35,523 nucleotides of DNA from Campylobacteraceae bacterium (lineage in GTDB: Bacteria; Campylobacterota; Campylobacteria; Campylobacterales; Sulfurovaceae), in NCBI GenBank assembly GCA_027076905.1, contig JALTGP010000065.1, forward strand, positions 1-35,523, written 5' to 3'. Below, piece by piece: positions 26,973-31,364 of the stretch. Made by a program: the position numbers and the translations under genes. Under the pieces are notes generated by a model. The model was not told where the DNA came from. It ran no database searches and worked only from the letters and a program-made list of their open reading frames with translations. How positions within the stretch are numbered: the first letter of the stretch is position 1; each line of letters starts with the position of its first letter.

Positions 26973-28372
26973 TGGCAGGAATAGGATTTGAACTTAATAA
27001 GATTCTCAAAGAAAGGTCTATCTCAGCTGTTATAAAAACATTTGGATATTCAGCTATTTTAAGTTCGGGTCCATGGGTTATCTCCATGATTATCATCTTG
27101 GCAATTGGACTTAGTAATGTTTACTTTTTTCAGGATGGAACTCCCAAAGAGACCATGCTACAAGCCTCGGTAACCTATGTCTCTGCATTGGCATTAAGCT
27201 CTGTCTTTACAGGGTTTTTTCAACTTCCCTTTACGCGATTTATTGCGGATAGAATCTACGAGGGTCGTTTTTATCTGGTCTTGCCCAATTTCTTAGGGAT
27301 GCTTCTTGTCACTATTGGTACAGGTTTTTTTATAGCTCTTGTTTTGGCAATGTTTCTCTTTGAGACACAAAGTAACCTCTTTATTCTACTCTACACAGCA
27401 CTTTTCGTAGTACTCTCCTGTGTCTGGATGGCAAATATTTTAGCAGCGAGTTTAAAACTCTACAAGCACGTCATTATCTTCTATCTCTTAGGATATATCA
27501 CAATTTATATCTCCTCAATGTTTTTAAAAGAGCAGGAGCTTATTGGATTGCTTATCTCCTTTATTATTGGGAACAGTATCCTTTTTATTTTATTATTTTT
27601 GGGGATTATCTACTACTACCCATCTTTTAATAAAAATAATAAAAAATTTATTCGTTTTGATATGTTCAAGCAGAACTATGGAAAGTTTTACTGGAAACTG
27701 GCATGGTCGGGAATGCTATATAATATCGCCATTTGGATAGATAAAGTCATCTTTTGGTTCTCTCCACTTGTTGGATACATGGTCATTGACAAGCTTCATG
27801 CCTCTATGGTGTATGATTTTCCTATCTTTTTAGCCTACCTCTCGATTATCCCTGGTATGGCTATCTTCTTCTTTCGACTGGAGGTTGATTTTGCAAAATC
27901 CTATGAATACTTCTACCGTGCCATTAACAAGCACGGCACACTCCGACAGATAAAACGTCACAAACAGGGCATGATAGATGCGGTAAAGAGAAGTATTCAT
28001 GAGGTACTCTTTGTCCAAGGTATTTTTAATATATTTCTCTTTTTGGGGGCAGAGCAACTCTTTGAGTTACTGCTTTTACCCAAACTATATCTGCCTCTTT
28101 TTTATGTTGACGTTATAGGGGTACAATTACAGTTAGGATTCATGTCTATTTTGGCATTTTTATACTACCTTGACCGACAAAAAGAGGCACTCTACTATAC
28201 CCTCTTTTTTGTCTTAATCAACGCTGTTTTAACATGGATTAGTATTCAACTCGGTCCTTATTTTTATGGGTATGGCTACAGCATTACCCTACTTATTTTA
28301 TTTGTTTCTAGTATATTAACACTCAATAGAATTTTACAGGAGTTGGATTATGAGACCTTTATGTTGCAGTAA
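26972..28372 (+). CDS. pelG: PelG, inner-membrane Pel transporter (MOP superfamily)
   Basis: A 466-residue polytopic protein with about 12 hydrophobic helices that, with PelD and PelE, moves the nascent Pel chain across the inner membrane. The N-terminus MAGIGFELNKILKERSISAV is the family signature; further motifs are SSGPWVISM, LPFTRFIADRIYE, the central KLAWSGMLYNIAIWIDKVIF and SIIPGMAIFFFRLEVDFA. Pseudomonas PelG is of similar size. The start codon overlaps the pelF stop (TAATG). Near its 3' end an AGGAG followed by ATG at 28350 opens the next frame, so pelA translation could be coupled to it. Its last residues are regular; the palindromic repeats begin 15 bases after its stop. Confidence 0.95.
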   Translation: MAGIGFELNKILKERSISAVIKTFGYSAILSSGPWVISMIIILAIGLSNVYFFQDGTPKETMLQASVTYVSALALSSVFTGFFQLPFTRFIADRIYEGRFYLVLPNFLGMLLVTIGTGFFIALVLAMFLFETQSNLFILLYTALFVVLSCVWMANILAASLKLYKHVIIFYLLGYITIYISSMFLKEQELIGLLISFIIGNSILFILLFLGIIYYYPSFNKNNKKFIRFDMFKQNYGKFYWKLAWSGMLYNIAIWIDKVIFWFSPLVGYMVIDKLHASMVYDFPIFLAYLSIIPGMAIFFFRLEVDFAKSYEYFYRAINKHGTLRQIKRHKQGMIDAVKRSIHEVLFVQGIFNIFLFLGAEQLFELLLLPKLYLPLFYVDVIGVQLQLGFMSILAFLYYLDRQKEALYYTLFFVLINAVLTWISIQLGPYFYGYGYSITLLILFVSSILTLNRILQELDYETFMLQ

Positions 28373-31364
28373 AATAACAGAGCTATTTGGAAACGGAGGC
28401 TTTCGCCCCGAACAATGGAGTCAAAGCCATCCTATTCTAAATCTTTTAAGATATCTATTAGACTTCTTGCAAAACTCTTTGGAATCGGAGACTTTAGTCC
28501 CGAACAAAATGAGGCTAAAGCCATCGGTTCCTAGTTTTGCAAGATATTTATTGATAACCGTGCTATTTCTAGCAACAACGTTAATGGCTAATGAACGTTA
28601 CGCGTTTATTTATAGCAAAAATATAGATGATACCTTTATAAATTTCTATGACAAAGTTATTGTCGAAGCGGACGCGATTGATAATATCTATGCCATTCGT
28701 CACCCTAAAAAGATGGTTGCCTATGTGAGTGTGGGTGAGATAGAGCCGTGGAGAAAAACCAAAACTAAATATAAGAAATCATGGGTTATCTCAAAAAACA
28801 AAACATGGAACTCGTTGGTTGCTGATTTAGAAAAAAAGGCGTATCAGGAGTTTATCTTTGAACGTCTGGAGTCACTTTATAAAAAAGGGTATAGAAACTT
28901 TTTTTTAGATACTATGGATGCGTATCATGTGACAGCAAAAGAGAAAAAACTTTTTAAGAGACAACAAAAAGCACTTATCTCCTTTATCCATAAACTACAT
29001 CAAAAATATCCTGATGCAAAAATTATTATGAACCGTGGATTTGAGCTTTTAAAAGAGGTTCATAATGAGATAGATGCCGTGGTGGCAGAGAGTCTGCTTA
29101 GTCGTTATGACCATGCAAAAAAAGAGTATCTTGAAGTTCCAAAATCCGATAGGGAGTGGCTTCTTGATAGATTTGAAGAGGCAAAGAGGTATGGACTAGA
29201 GGTTATCTCTATTGATTATACGAATAAGAGTACAAAAGAGAGACGTGAAATTGCCAAAAAGATAAAAAAACTAGGAGTTATTCCTTATGTAACCGATGGA
29301 CTTTTACAAGAACAAGGAGAGTGTGAAATAGAGAGGGTAAGAAGAGATGTTTTAATCTTATTTAACTCTTCAATGTTCAAAGATAACAATGCTGTCTATT
29401 CAGATGTACATCTTTTAGCCTCTATGCCATTAGAGTATTGGGGATATATACCTATATTATATGATATCTCTACCAAAGAGCTACCCAAGCGTGTAGAGGA
29501 TAGATATCACTCTGTTATTGTTTGGAGTGAGGGGGCAACAAAAAACAATGAAAAACTATACACTTGGGCAAAATCTCTAAAAGAGAAACAGATTAAAATA
29601 CTATTTTTAAATAGTTTTGTATTTAAGCCAACCCCTACAAGACTCAAAACATTTGGACTTAGTACAAAGGAGAACAGTAATGGTTTTATAGATAAAGTAG
29701 CCATAGAGTACAGACCACCCTATAAAGCATATGAGGTGTCTGCTTCTATTGAGTATGAGGATGAGTTGATTTTGGCAAAGGGTGCTAAAGAGGTGATAAC
29801 AACACACTATAAAGATGGTCAAAAGAGTATGCCCATTGCCATTACTCCTTGGGGGGGATATGCACTCAATGGTGCTTTTTTAGAGAGTATCGTACATGAA
29901 AACTTTTGGACAATCAACCCTTTTATTTTTTTTAAAGATGCACTAAGACTCGATAGCATTCCTGTACCTGACCCCACCACAGAAGCGGGTAGACGAATCC
30001 TATTTATACATATTGATGGTGATGGTTTTATGGAGATAGTGCGTACCGCACCCAAACAGTTGGCATCTGAATTTCTACTAGAACATATCTATAAAAAATA
30101 TCAAGTTCCTCAAACCATCTCATTGGTACAAGGAGAGGTAGATAGCATTGGACTATATCCCAAACTTAGTCCACGTATGAAAAAAATTGCCAGAGAGATT
30201 TATAAAGTCCCTTGGATAGAACCTGCTAGTCACACCCTCTCTCACCCATTTTTTTGGGGTCAAGCTGATAAAAATTTAGAGAAAAAGAAAAATACTTTGG
30301 AATCTGAGACTTTAATCCCAAATAAAGCAAGTCTAAAGCCATCGGTTCCGAAAGATAAAAATATAAGTAAACAATCAGAGGGACACTACCACCTGCCAAT
30401 TCCAAACTATGAGTTTGACCTAAAAAGTGAAACCAAAGATAGTGTTGATTTTGTACTCGGGTTAGCACCTGCATCAAAACAGAAAGAGAGAGTTATTTTT
30501 TGGAGTGGTGATTGTCTGCCAACACGTGTAGTATTGGCATATTGTGAAAGAGATGGTATTTTGGGAATGAACGGGGGAGATACCACCATTAAAAAGAGTG
30601 ACCCATGGCTTAGTCATCTTGCACCTTTTGGGGTACAAAGAGAGGAGTATTGGCAAATCTATACAGGTCAACAGAATGAAAATGTCTATACCAATGATTG
30701 GCTAGGCCCATTTTGGGGATATCGTGATGCCATTGAGACCTTTAAAATAACAGAAGAGCCATACCGAATAAAACCCATTAATATCTATTATCACTTCTAT
30801 TCAGGATCTAAACTCGCCTCCTTTAAAGCCCTAGATGAGGTCTACTCATGGGCAATAGCACAAAAAACCTCAAAACTCTACGCCTCCCAATATATCAAAA
30901 AAGGACGGGGTTTTTATCAAACCTCTATTGCCAAAACCAAAGGTGGTTTTGAAATTAGAAACGCTGGATTTTTACGCACGGTTCGTTTTGATAAGAAGAT
31001 TTATGTTGATATGAAAAAAAGTATTGGCGTGGCAGGATACAACCATCATAAAAACCAAAAGAATAGATACACTACCTATGTAACGTTAGATAGCCGTAAA
31101 AACCATTTTGTTCTCTTAAGTGAGTATCCACAAAATAGCCCCCACCTTATAGATTCTAACGGGTGGGTAGTCACTGCCGAGCAAGAGCAGAATATCTATA
31201 AGTTTGTATTAAAATCCAACATACCCCTAGAGGCAAATTTTTTTATGCCAACAATGTGTAGACTGTTACCTATAGAGGGGTTTAAGATAGACATTTTAGA
31301 TAAAAAAGTATCTATTTTTACAGATAATAAAAATGGAGTATCCCTTGTATTTGAGTGTCAATAA
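28350..31364 (+). CDS. pelA: PelA, periplasmic Pel hydrolase/deacetylase with in-frame palindromic-element peptides
   Basis: Bifunctional periplasmic enzyme: glycoside hydrolase and N-deacetylase of Pel. In this numbering a signal peptide lies at about 62-80 (RYLLITVLFLATTLMA-NE), the hydrolase domain at about 82-320 (YVSVGEIEPWR, FFLDTMDAY, VVAESLL with Glu247 as probable catalytic acid), a Rossmann-like middle, then the deacetylase with Asp556/Asp558 in HIDGDGF, His628/His632 in SHTLSHPF, and WSGDCLP and GMNGGDT. Start is ambiguous. ATG 28350 has AGGAG seven bases upstream and overlaps pelG, but puts 60 residues before the signal peptide. ATG 28509 gives 951 residues, close to Pseudomonas PelA, but lacks a ribosome site and lies within a palindromic repeat. 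Residues 650-667 are encoded by another repeat copy. Confidence 0.92.
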   Translation: MRPLCCSKITELFGNGGFRPEQWSQSHPILNLLRYLLDFLQNSLESETLVPNKMRLKPSVPSFARYLLITVLFLATTLMANERYAFIYSKNIDDTFINFYDKVIVEADAIDNIYAIRHPKKMVAYVSVGEIEPWRKTKTKYKKSWVISKNKTWNSLVADLEKKAYQEFIFERLESLYKKGYRNFFLDTMDAYHVTAKEKKLFKRQQKALISFIHKLHQKYPDAKIIMNRGFELLKEVHNEIDAVVAESLLSRYDHAKKEYLEVPKSDREWLLDRFEEAKRYGLEVISIDYTNKSTKERREIAKKIKKLGVIPYVTDGLLQEQGECEIERVRRDVLILFNSSMFKDNNAVYSDVHLLASMPLEYWGYIPILYDISTKELPKRVEDRYHSVIVWSEGATKNNEKLYTWAKSLKEKQIKILFLNSFVFKPTPTRLKTFGLSTKENSNGFIDKVAIEYRPPYKAYEVSASIEYEDELILAKGAKEVITTHYKDGQKSMPIAITPWGGYALNGAFLESIVHENFWTINPFIFFKDALRLDSIPVPDPTTEAGRRILFIHIDGDGFMEIVRTAPKQLASEFLLEHIYKKYQVPQTISLVQGEVDSIGLYPKLSPRMKKIAREIYKVPWIEPASHTLSHPFFWGQADKNLEKKKNTLESETLIPNKASLKPSVPKDKNISKQSEGHYHLPIPNYEFDLKSETKDSVDFVLGLAPASKQKERVIFWSGDCLPTRVVLAYCERDGILGMNGGDTTIKKSDPWLSHLAPFGVQREEYWQIYTGQQNENVYTNDWLGPFWGYRDAIETFKITEEPYRIKPINIYYHFYSGSKLASFKALDEVYSWAIAQKTSKLYASQYIKKGRGFYQTSIAKTKGGFEIRNAGFLRTVRFDKKIYVDMKKSIGVAGYNHHKNQKNRYTTYVTLDSRKNHFVLLSEYPQNSPHLIDSNGWVVTAEQEQNIYKFVLKSNIPLEANFFMPTMCRLLPIEGFKIDILDKKVSIFTDNKNGVSLVFECQ
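28387..28432 (+). repeat. Palindromic REP-like element, copy 1 (pelG-pelA junction)
   Basis: Begins TTGGAAACGGAGGCTTTCGC, then CCCGAAC as loop, and a right arm AGTCAAAGCCATCC. It aligns with copies 2 and 3 over both arms, with a slightly shorter loop and right end. It lies 15 bases after the pelG stop. In the long pelA frame it is read in a different register from copies 2 and 3, which suggests it is not under selection as peptide. Confidence 0.75.
28466..28543 (+). repeat. Palindromic REP-like element, copy 2, with extended hairpin and internal ATG
   Basis: The 51-base core (28481-28531) has arms GGAATCGGAGACTTTAGTCC and GGCTAAAGCCATCGGTTCC that pair at 17 of 19 positions counting three G-U pairs. 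Directly outside are perfect 11-base inverted flanks, CTTGCAAAACT (28466-28476) and AGTTTTGCAAG (28533-28543), so the whole unit can form a hairpin of nearly 30 pairs. The loop contains the ATG at 28509, in frame with pelA. The core is read in the pelA frame as LESETLVPNKMRLKPSVP. Confidence 0.85.
30299..30349 (+). repeat. Palindromic REP-like element, copy 3, in frame inside pelA
   Basis: Same length as the core of copy 2 and identical at 45 of 53 positions, counting the preceding TT of TTGG. It keeps the GGAATC...ATCGGTTCC ends and the CTTTA/CTAAAGCC arms, with more mismatches near the loop. It encodes LESETLIPNKASLKPSVP (PelA 650-667) in the same reading frame as copy 2, in a linker between the SHTLSHPFFW catalytic segment and the conserved-looking YHLPIPNYEFDL segment of the deacetylase domain. 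Confidence 0.9.

Follow-up and report, generated by a model that had tools for sequence, protein, structure and literature searches.

How does a palindromic repeat come to lie within the gene of an enzyme while leaving its reading frame open, and is the peptide that it encodes of any use there? The question is raised by pelA in the window, as we call the whole 35,523-nucleotide stretch of Campylobacteraceae DNA that was analysed. An earlier note, made from the letters alone, had placed a 51-base palindrome in frame within the deacetylase domain of this gene and had proposed a process resembling that of the Rickettsia palindromic elements (RPEs).

A palindromic core in the PelA deacetylase loop

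Between 22509 and 34908, the ORFs stand in what we take to be the order of a pel cluster, with presumptive names for all but PelA. The latter was the sole cluster ORF checked by domain-library comparison, which revealed a GH114 domain. The features that concern the loop are these:

28350 to 31364, + strand: pelA ORF, uninterrupted over 1004 codons, with a GH114 domain and PelA similarity across its C-terminal half; carries all three element copies of the window.
30299 to 30349, + strand: 51-bp element core within the deacetylase loop of PelA; together with flanking bases, it encodes LESETLIPNKASLKPSVP; 84% to the element by BLAST (E=3.2e-12).
30278 to 30298, + strand: candidate eroded left arm of the loop copy, AGAGAAAAAGAAAAATACTTT against AGACTTCTTGCAAAACTCTTT, 12 of 21 positions equal by eye in an A-rich context.

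The core reads GGAATCTGAGACTTTAATCCCAAATAAAGCAAGTCTAAAGCCATCGGTTCC on the + strand and, as had been claimed, lies within the intact 1004-codon ORF. Its peptide directly follows SHTLSHPFFW, confirming, in sequence terms, the proposed closeness to the active site. The window PelA matches a solved PelA (PDB 9cgy; E=8e-72) whose SHTFSHPFFW aligns with this motif; the insert falls in a stretch omitted by the alignment.

It had been stated beforehand that a peptide common to all Campylobacterota PelA proteins would speak against insertion. In an alignment of 30 PelA proteins, the window PelA alone has the peptide at this site, and the 29 homologues are without it. Between SHPFFW and HLPIPNY, it has 44 residues, whereas most homologues from the same genus have 17, most others 12 or 13 and its nearest relative (genome G010) 30; linkers without the element range from 5 to 30 residues. 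We sought the exact empty site in G010, where the linker is too diverged to set the borders of the insert. The PelA of genome G029 (L199) carries an independent element copy at another place, before PYLIDSNGW. Much of the hairpin of the window's loop core has been lost (-7.2 kcal/mol versus -20.8 for the consensus core), so this copy appears old and decayed; its right arm and target duplication are no longer recognisable.

The core belongs to a dispersed 90-bp hairpin element

The 51-base repeat described from the letters is real, but it is not the unit. Comparison of copies revealed a 90-bp element, AGACTTCTTGCAAAACTCTTT-core-TAGTTTTGCAAGATGTCT, which folds as a single hairpin (-41.7 kcal/mol) and of which the 51 bp are only the conserved core. 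Within the window, a 23-base pattern taken from the left half matched twice, versus 0.00 in shuffles. Genome-wide, a 21-base pattern gave 46 matches when at most three mismatches were allowed, versus none for the reversed control, and BLAST returned 41 places at E<=3.2e-12. We estimate about 40–50 copies in the window genome, well beyond pelA, leaving the insertion of a mobile palindrome unrefuted, and more than 100 occurrences across other genomes of Sulfurovum/Campylobacterota.

When 84,980 species genomes were scanned for the exact pattern, at least 105 stretches matched; among the scan matches listed, all records bear the name Sulfurovum, Campylobacteraceae, Campylobacterales, Campylobacterota or Epsilonproteobacteria. 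Of 248 other sampled genomes of the order, four carried the element, three of them within the same family. Comparison of the window with Rfam returned no match, and no description of the element was found in the open-access literature on MITEs or palindromes of Sulfurovum, Sulfurimonas or Epsilonproteobacteria.

In the window genome, the core is often embedded in longer arms. Other pairs of long inverted ends, TAAGTACTTGACC...GGTAGGTACTTA and GGCATCCTTCATAAGTAGTTTAC...GTAAACTACTTTTCATGAGATATGAAGGATGCC, also enclose the core (L038, L044, L068, L090, L106; L040, L041, L068), an arrangement that suggests shared or nested MITE families. One locus (L126, 5068-5352) has four tandem cores at 78-base spacing, with one frame open over a 280-codon ORF of weak coding score.

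An IS5-family insertion sequence shares ends and target with the element

The flanks of the full-length copies point to a mover. Outside AGAC...GTCT, 46 full-length copies have ANT on the left in 38 cases and on the right in 40. In 33 of the 46, the left and right triplets are the same (shuffle maximum 21), and in 42 they agree in their middle base (shuffle maximum 26). A TA target of the Tc1/IS630 type was dropped, since the flanks read ANT with equal middle base.

Two genomes of the same genus contain a 903-bp insertion sequence (IS), at loci L300 and L301, with the same 17-bp ends as the element, AGAC(A/T)TCTTGCAAAACT, and ACT—the same kind of target—is duplicated around the L301 copy. Its two ORFs match HTH_Tnp_4 (PF13613, 1.6e-12) and DDE_Tnp_4 (PF13359, 1.2e-21). 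The ISL2 group of the IS5 family has ANT as its target. On the basis of this target, the domains, the size and the two-ORF layout, we class the IS as ISL2-like; published ISL2-group examples have two ORFs and about 914 bp (PMC3196728).

Matches to the IS transposase, at least as fragments, were found in 8 of 34 same-genus genomes, many of them at contig ends in one (G019). The genome of the window, an 85% complete draft, yielded neither an intact nor a partial IS copy; the solo ends examined there as candidates for an autonomous element turned out to be composites or decayed copies and contained no transposase. A second, related IS of ~924 bp is present in genome G023 (L305 1285-2209, L307 1259-2182), with ends AGACTTCTTGCATAACC, ATT on both sides and broken transposase frames.

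Having the same 17-bp ends and the same target as the 903-bp IS, the element qualifies as a MITE of that IS. We consider it very probable that the repeat in pelA represents the core of this 90-bp MITE, derived from an IS5-family, ISL2-like IS, moved in trans, inserted without loss of frame and later eroded to its core. The IS transposase would insert the element at ANT sites, duplicating 3 bp, and each insertion would add 90+3=93 bp, that is 31 codons, with the reading frame kept. This sum, and not the divisibility of 51 by three that had been offered as the frame argument, is the relevant one. Selection would preserve those insertions that fall where a protein tolerates them, for example in linkers, loops or the n-regions of signal peptides. 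The arms would then erode via substitutions and in-frame deletions until the 51-bp core alone is recognisable, as in the pelA loop, a step that we infer from the remnants of arms and from net gains that fall short of 31 codons. The core in other terminal contexts lies outside the reach of this explanation, and we count it against it, as we do the lack of an IS match in the draft window genome, the lost right arm and duplication of the pelA loop copy with the diverged linker of G010, and the varying net gains at core-only sites.

In-frame insertions in many genes

The full 90 bp can be read without a stop in one frame of each orientation, +2 (DFLQNSLESETLVPNKTRLKPSVPSFARC) and -0 (RHLAKLGTDGFSLVLFGTKVSDSKEFCKKS), which makes two of the six. 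A TAG adjoining the core shuts one further frame in each orientation. By simple arithmetic, an insertion therefore has a roughly one-in-three chance of yielding a 31-residue peptide rather than a broken gene. Adaptation of the element for coding was considered and rejected, as two of six frames open over 30 codons is about what chance would give. Gene-internal copies are read in frame +2 in about 19 cases and in -0 in seven (duplicates removed by hand; two-sided p=0.03); frame +0 occurs in genes in two cases only, both of them copies without the TAG. None of the gene-internal sites holds the frame-shifting 91-bp variant, an absence that is not significant (p=0.16).

Both core borders were found for 145 copies, the window copies and orthologous pairs included, so that the counts are approximate. 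Of these, 104 lie outside any coding-scored ORF, 14 lie at ORF ends and 27 are internal to ORFs, with sequence of coding character to either side. HMM families with an insert comprise CarB, HypF (two copies), SdhA/FrdA (two proteins), RNase HI, CoaBC, PtsI, PdxR, DnaE, a UvrD-type helicase, type III pantothenate kinase (PanK) and others.

Besides PelA, we aligned insert-free homologues at 12 sites in 11 gene families: CarB, HypF, CoaBC, PtsI, the UvrD-type helicase, RNase HI, a CobB-type protein, SdhA/FrdA (two sites), PdxR, another helicase and PanK. The suggestion that a dispersed palindrome inserts in frame, in the manner of RPEs, in a Campylobacterota lineage is thus borne out by PelA and 12 further sites. 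Where both arms are kept, in PanK (L142) and PdxR (L128), the proteins have gained exactly 31 codons over their homologues, in agreement with the 90+3 prediction.

Some insertions are older than the species that carry them, given that they are shared. L072 (window genome) and L164 have one in common before a lipoprotein-type hydrophobic segment, and agree at 49 of 54 bases across the core stretch and at 115 of 300 in the sequence after it, compared without gaps; L170 and L179 share another.

Two further matches are recorded as side observations. In the DNA polymerase III alpha gene dnaE, an in-frame copy falls within an intein splicing-domain match (L092 aa 281-298; ORF L092:2-3484). The leucyl-tRNA synthetase gene of the window genome has a left-half core match in the usual frame with 3 mismatches in 21 (L071 2532-2552), which may be a remnant or chance and is not counted as a proven insertion.

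Core-only copies: erosion or a mobile core

The arms are poor in 21 of the 27 gene-internal copies, raising the possibility that the 51-bp core is mobile by itself or is copied through template switching, and has entered genes as well as several MITEs; the pelA loop would then be a direct core insertion. The occurrence of the core between at least two other types of ends in the window genome would fit this, as would net gains other than 31 codons in CarB and other proteins (about 7 to 22 codons across core-only sites). We nonetheless regard it as rather unlikely. Remnants of the arms are present at core-only sites, whose flanks match the arms above control windows (left, 44% versus 28%; right, 42% versus 24%). 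The best-dated case, in the UvrD-type helicase, retains TAGTTTTGCAAG from its right arm and is missing a portion of the core, for a net gain of 63 bp; around the site, it shares 94% identity with its empty homologue. Moreover, no duplication or transposase accompanies the bare core.

The arm remnants and the helicase copy lead us to favour erosion of the arms after insertion over a separate mobility of the core, without taking it as proven. At the insertion site, a helicase homologous to that of L154 (L294, G015:C75) has LKSKDLDPK, which might be what erosion has left of a copy common to both, namely its left half.

Copies at the pelA N-terminus and possible use by the cell

The repeat had also been reported upstream of the gene. 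Both further window copies in fact lie inside the N-terminus of the pelA ORF:

28460 to 28549, + strand: full-length copy (90 bp) in the N-terminal part of pelA, with ends AGACTTCTTGCAAAACT and (inverted) AAATATCTTGCAAAACT.
28481 to 28531, + strand: 51-bp core of this full-length copy, encoding LESETLVPNKMRLKPSVP together with flanking bases.
28389 to 28439, + strand: degenerate third core copy in the N-terminal part of pelA, read in frame +0 as GNGGFRPEQWSQ; 4 mismatches in 21 in its left half.
28509 to 28511, + strand: in-frame ATG within the element core (consensus ACG), a predicted start only; would begin MRLKPSVPSFARYLLITVLFLATTLMA (28509-28592), a plausible Sec signal peptide.

The full-length copy is flanked by ATT on both sides (28457-28459 and 28550-28552). 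The PelA of G010 is without an N-terminal block of ~58 residues that contains both copies, and the start region that pelA originally had may have been supplanted by the element. In different genomes, copies just ahead of a signal-peptide hydrophobic segment or lipoprotein leader were also seen, in L072, L073, L113, L122, L162 and L164.

Might the cell use such copies, the peptide having been selected as a functional loop or the N-terminal copies as start codons or signal-peptide n-regions? Speaking for such use are the direct position of copies before signal-peptide hydrophobic segments (pelA, L072/L164, L073, L113, L122, L162), the in-frame ATG of the full-length pelA copy, which the consensus is missing, and two insertions common to different species. 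The sites are scattered, however, and the peptides vary, while a place near the start is the least harmful for an insertion, so that tolerance explains the pattern. We accordingly deem selection for use improbable. The broader proposal—that the palindrome would supply protein parts, with start codons or n-regions in pelA and others, the insertions shared by L072/L164 and L170/L179 kept through use and the core-only state a selected, protein-adapted form—earns equally little credence. Judging from the comparison of letters, the loop peptide of PelA is most likely tolerated rather than functional.

REP-type mobilisation and chance similarity

REP elements moved by RAYT transposases had been mentioned as well, and the element is indeed palindromic and dispersed with an imperfect hairpin; one Y1_Tnp protein is encoded in the window genome. 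That a RAYT/Y1 transposase mobilises it is nevertheless very unlikely. The ends and the 3-bp ANT duplication are of the IS5 type, as in a MITE. There is no GTAG or CGTC tag; the ends read AGAC...GTCT and those of the core GGAATC...GGTTCC. The sole Y1_Tnp gene (C22:1906-2232) has no listed copy adjacent to it, the copies on C22 being at 12.9 and 38.7 kb. For the full-length form, the matching IS5-family element refutes this origin.

PelA linkers do differ in length, but that an ordinary variable linker resembles the intergenic repeat by chance has practically no likelihood and is refuted by the shuffles, which gave no chance matches, by the BLAST match to the element (E=3.2e-12) and by the homologue alignment, the same peptide recurring across many unrelated proteins and being absent in PelA homologues.

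Relation to known systems

The likely IS5-family MITE resembles known elements in part. In the accounts of Ogata 2000 and 2002 given in PMC10969869 and PMC3733652, RPEs are established as dispersed palindromes that lie in frame in enzymes. Like them, the present element is dispersed in and outside genes, inserted in frame in enzymes that have insert-free homologues, and encodes a short hydrophilic peptide. Unlike them, it resides in free-living Campylobacterota, measures 90 bp rather than about 150, and has an identified parent IS, ends and target duplication; the likeness is one of behaviour only. To our knowledge, the mover of the Rickettsia protein-coding palindromes is not established.

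With MITEs of the ISL2 group of the IS5 family, the element has in common 17-bp terminal inverted repeats shared with a two-ORF IS of ~900 bp, its small size, the lack of a transposase and the 3-bp duplication; it differs in its unusually many in-frame gene insertions. As far as our searches reach, the element and its IS are new relative to known IS5-family MITEs.

REPs of the GTAG and CGTC types are established inside ORFs, and Sulfurovum sp. NBC37-1 is listed with both (PMC3733652). They, too, are palindromes in ORFs of several free-living species, including DNA-repair and tRNA-related genes, whereas the present element has AGAC...GTCT ends, a target duplication and a DDE transposase instead of RAYT, and no GTAG/CGTC tag. 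QMITE1/2 of Coxiella burnetii are occasionally found in frame in ORFs or at their ends (PMC5896051). The parallel is that of a MITE sometimes in frame in ORFs; organism and ends are different, and QMITEs affect fewer conserved enzymes. The kind of event is known, best from Rickettsia, and the Sulfurovum element family is, within the reach of these searches, new.

Protein-coding palindromes are mainly known from Rickettsia. Here, one free-living genus presents the whole chain in readable form, from parent IS, ends, target duplication and net size to open frames, empty homologue sites and arm erosion, a system in which the frequency of transposon-added enzyme peptides and their later fate become testable. 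In PelA and further proteins of the group, foreign peptides lie near functional motifs, which matters for their annotation and for structure models.
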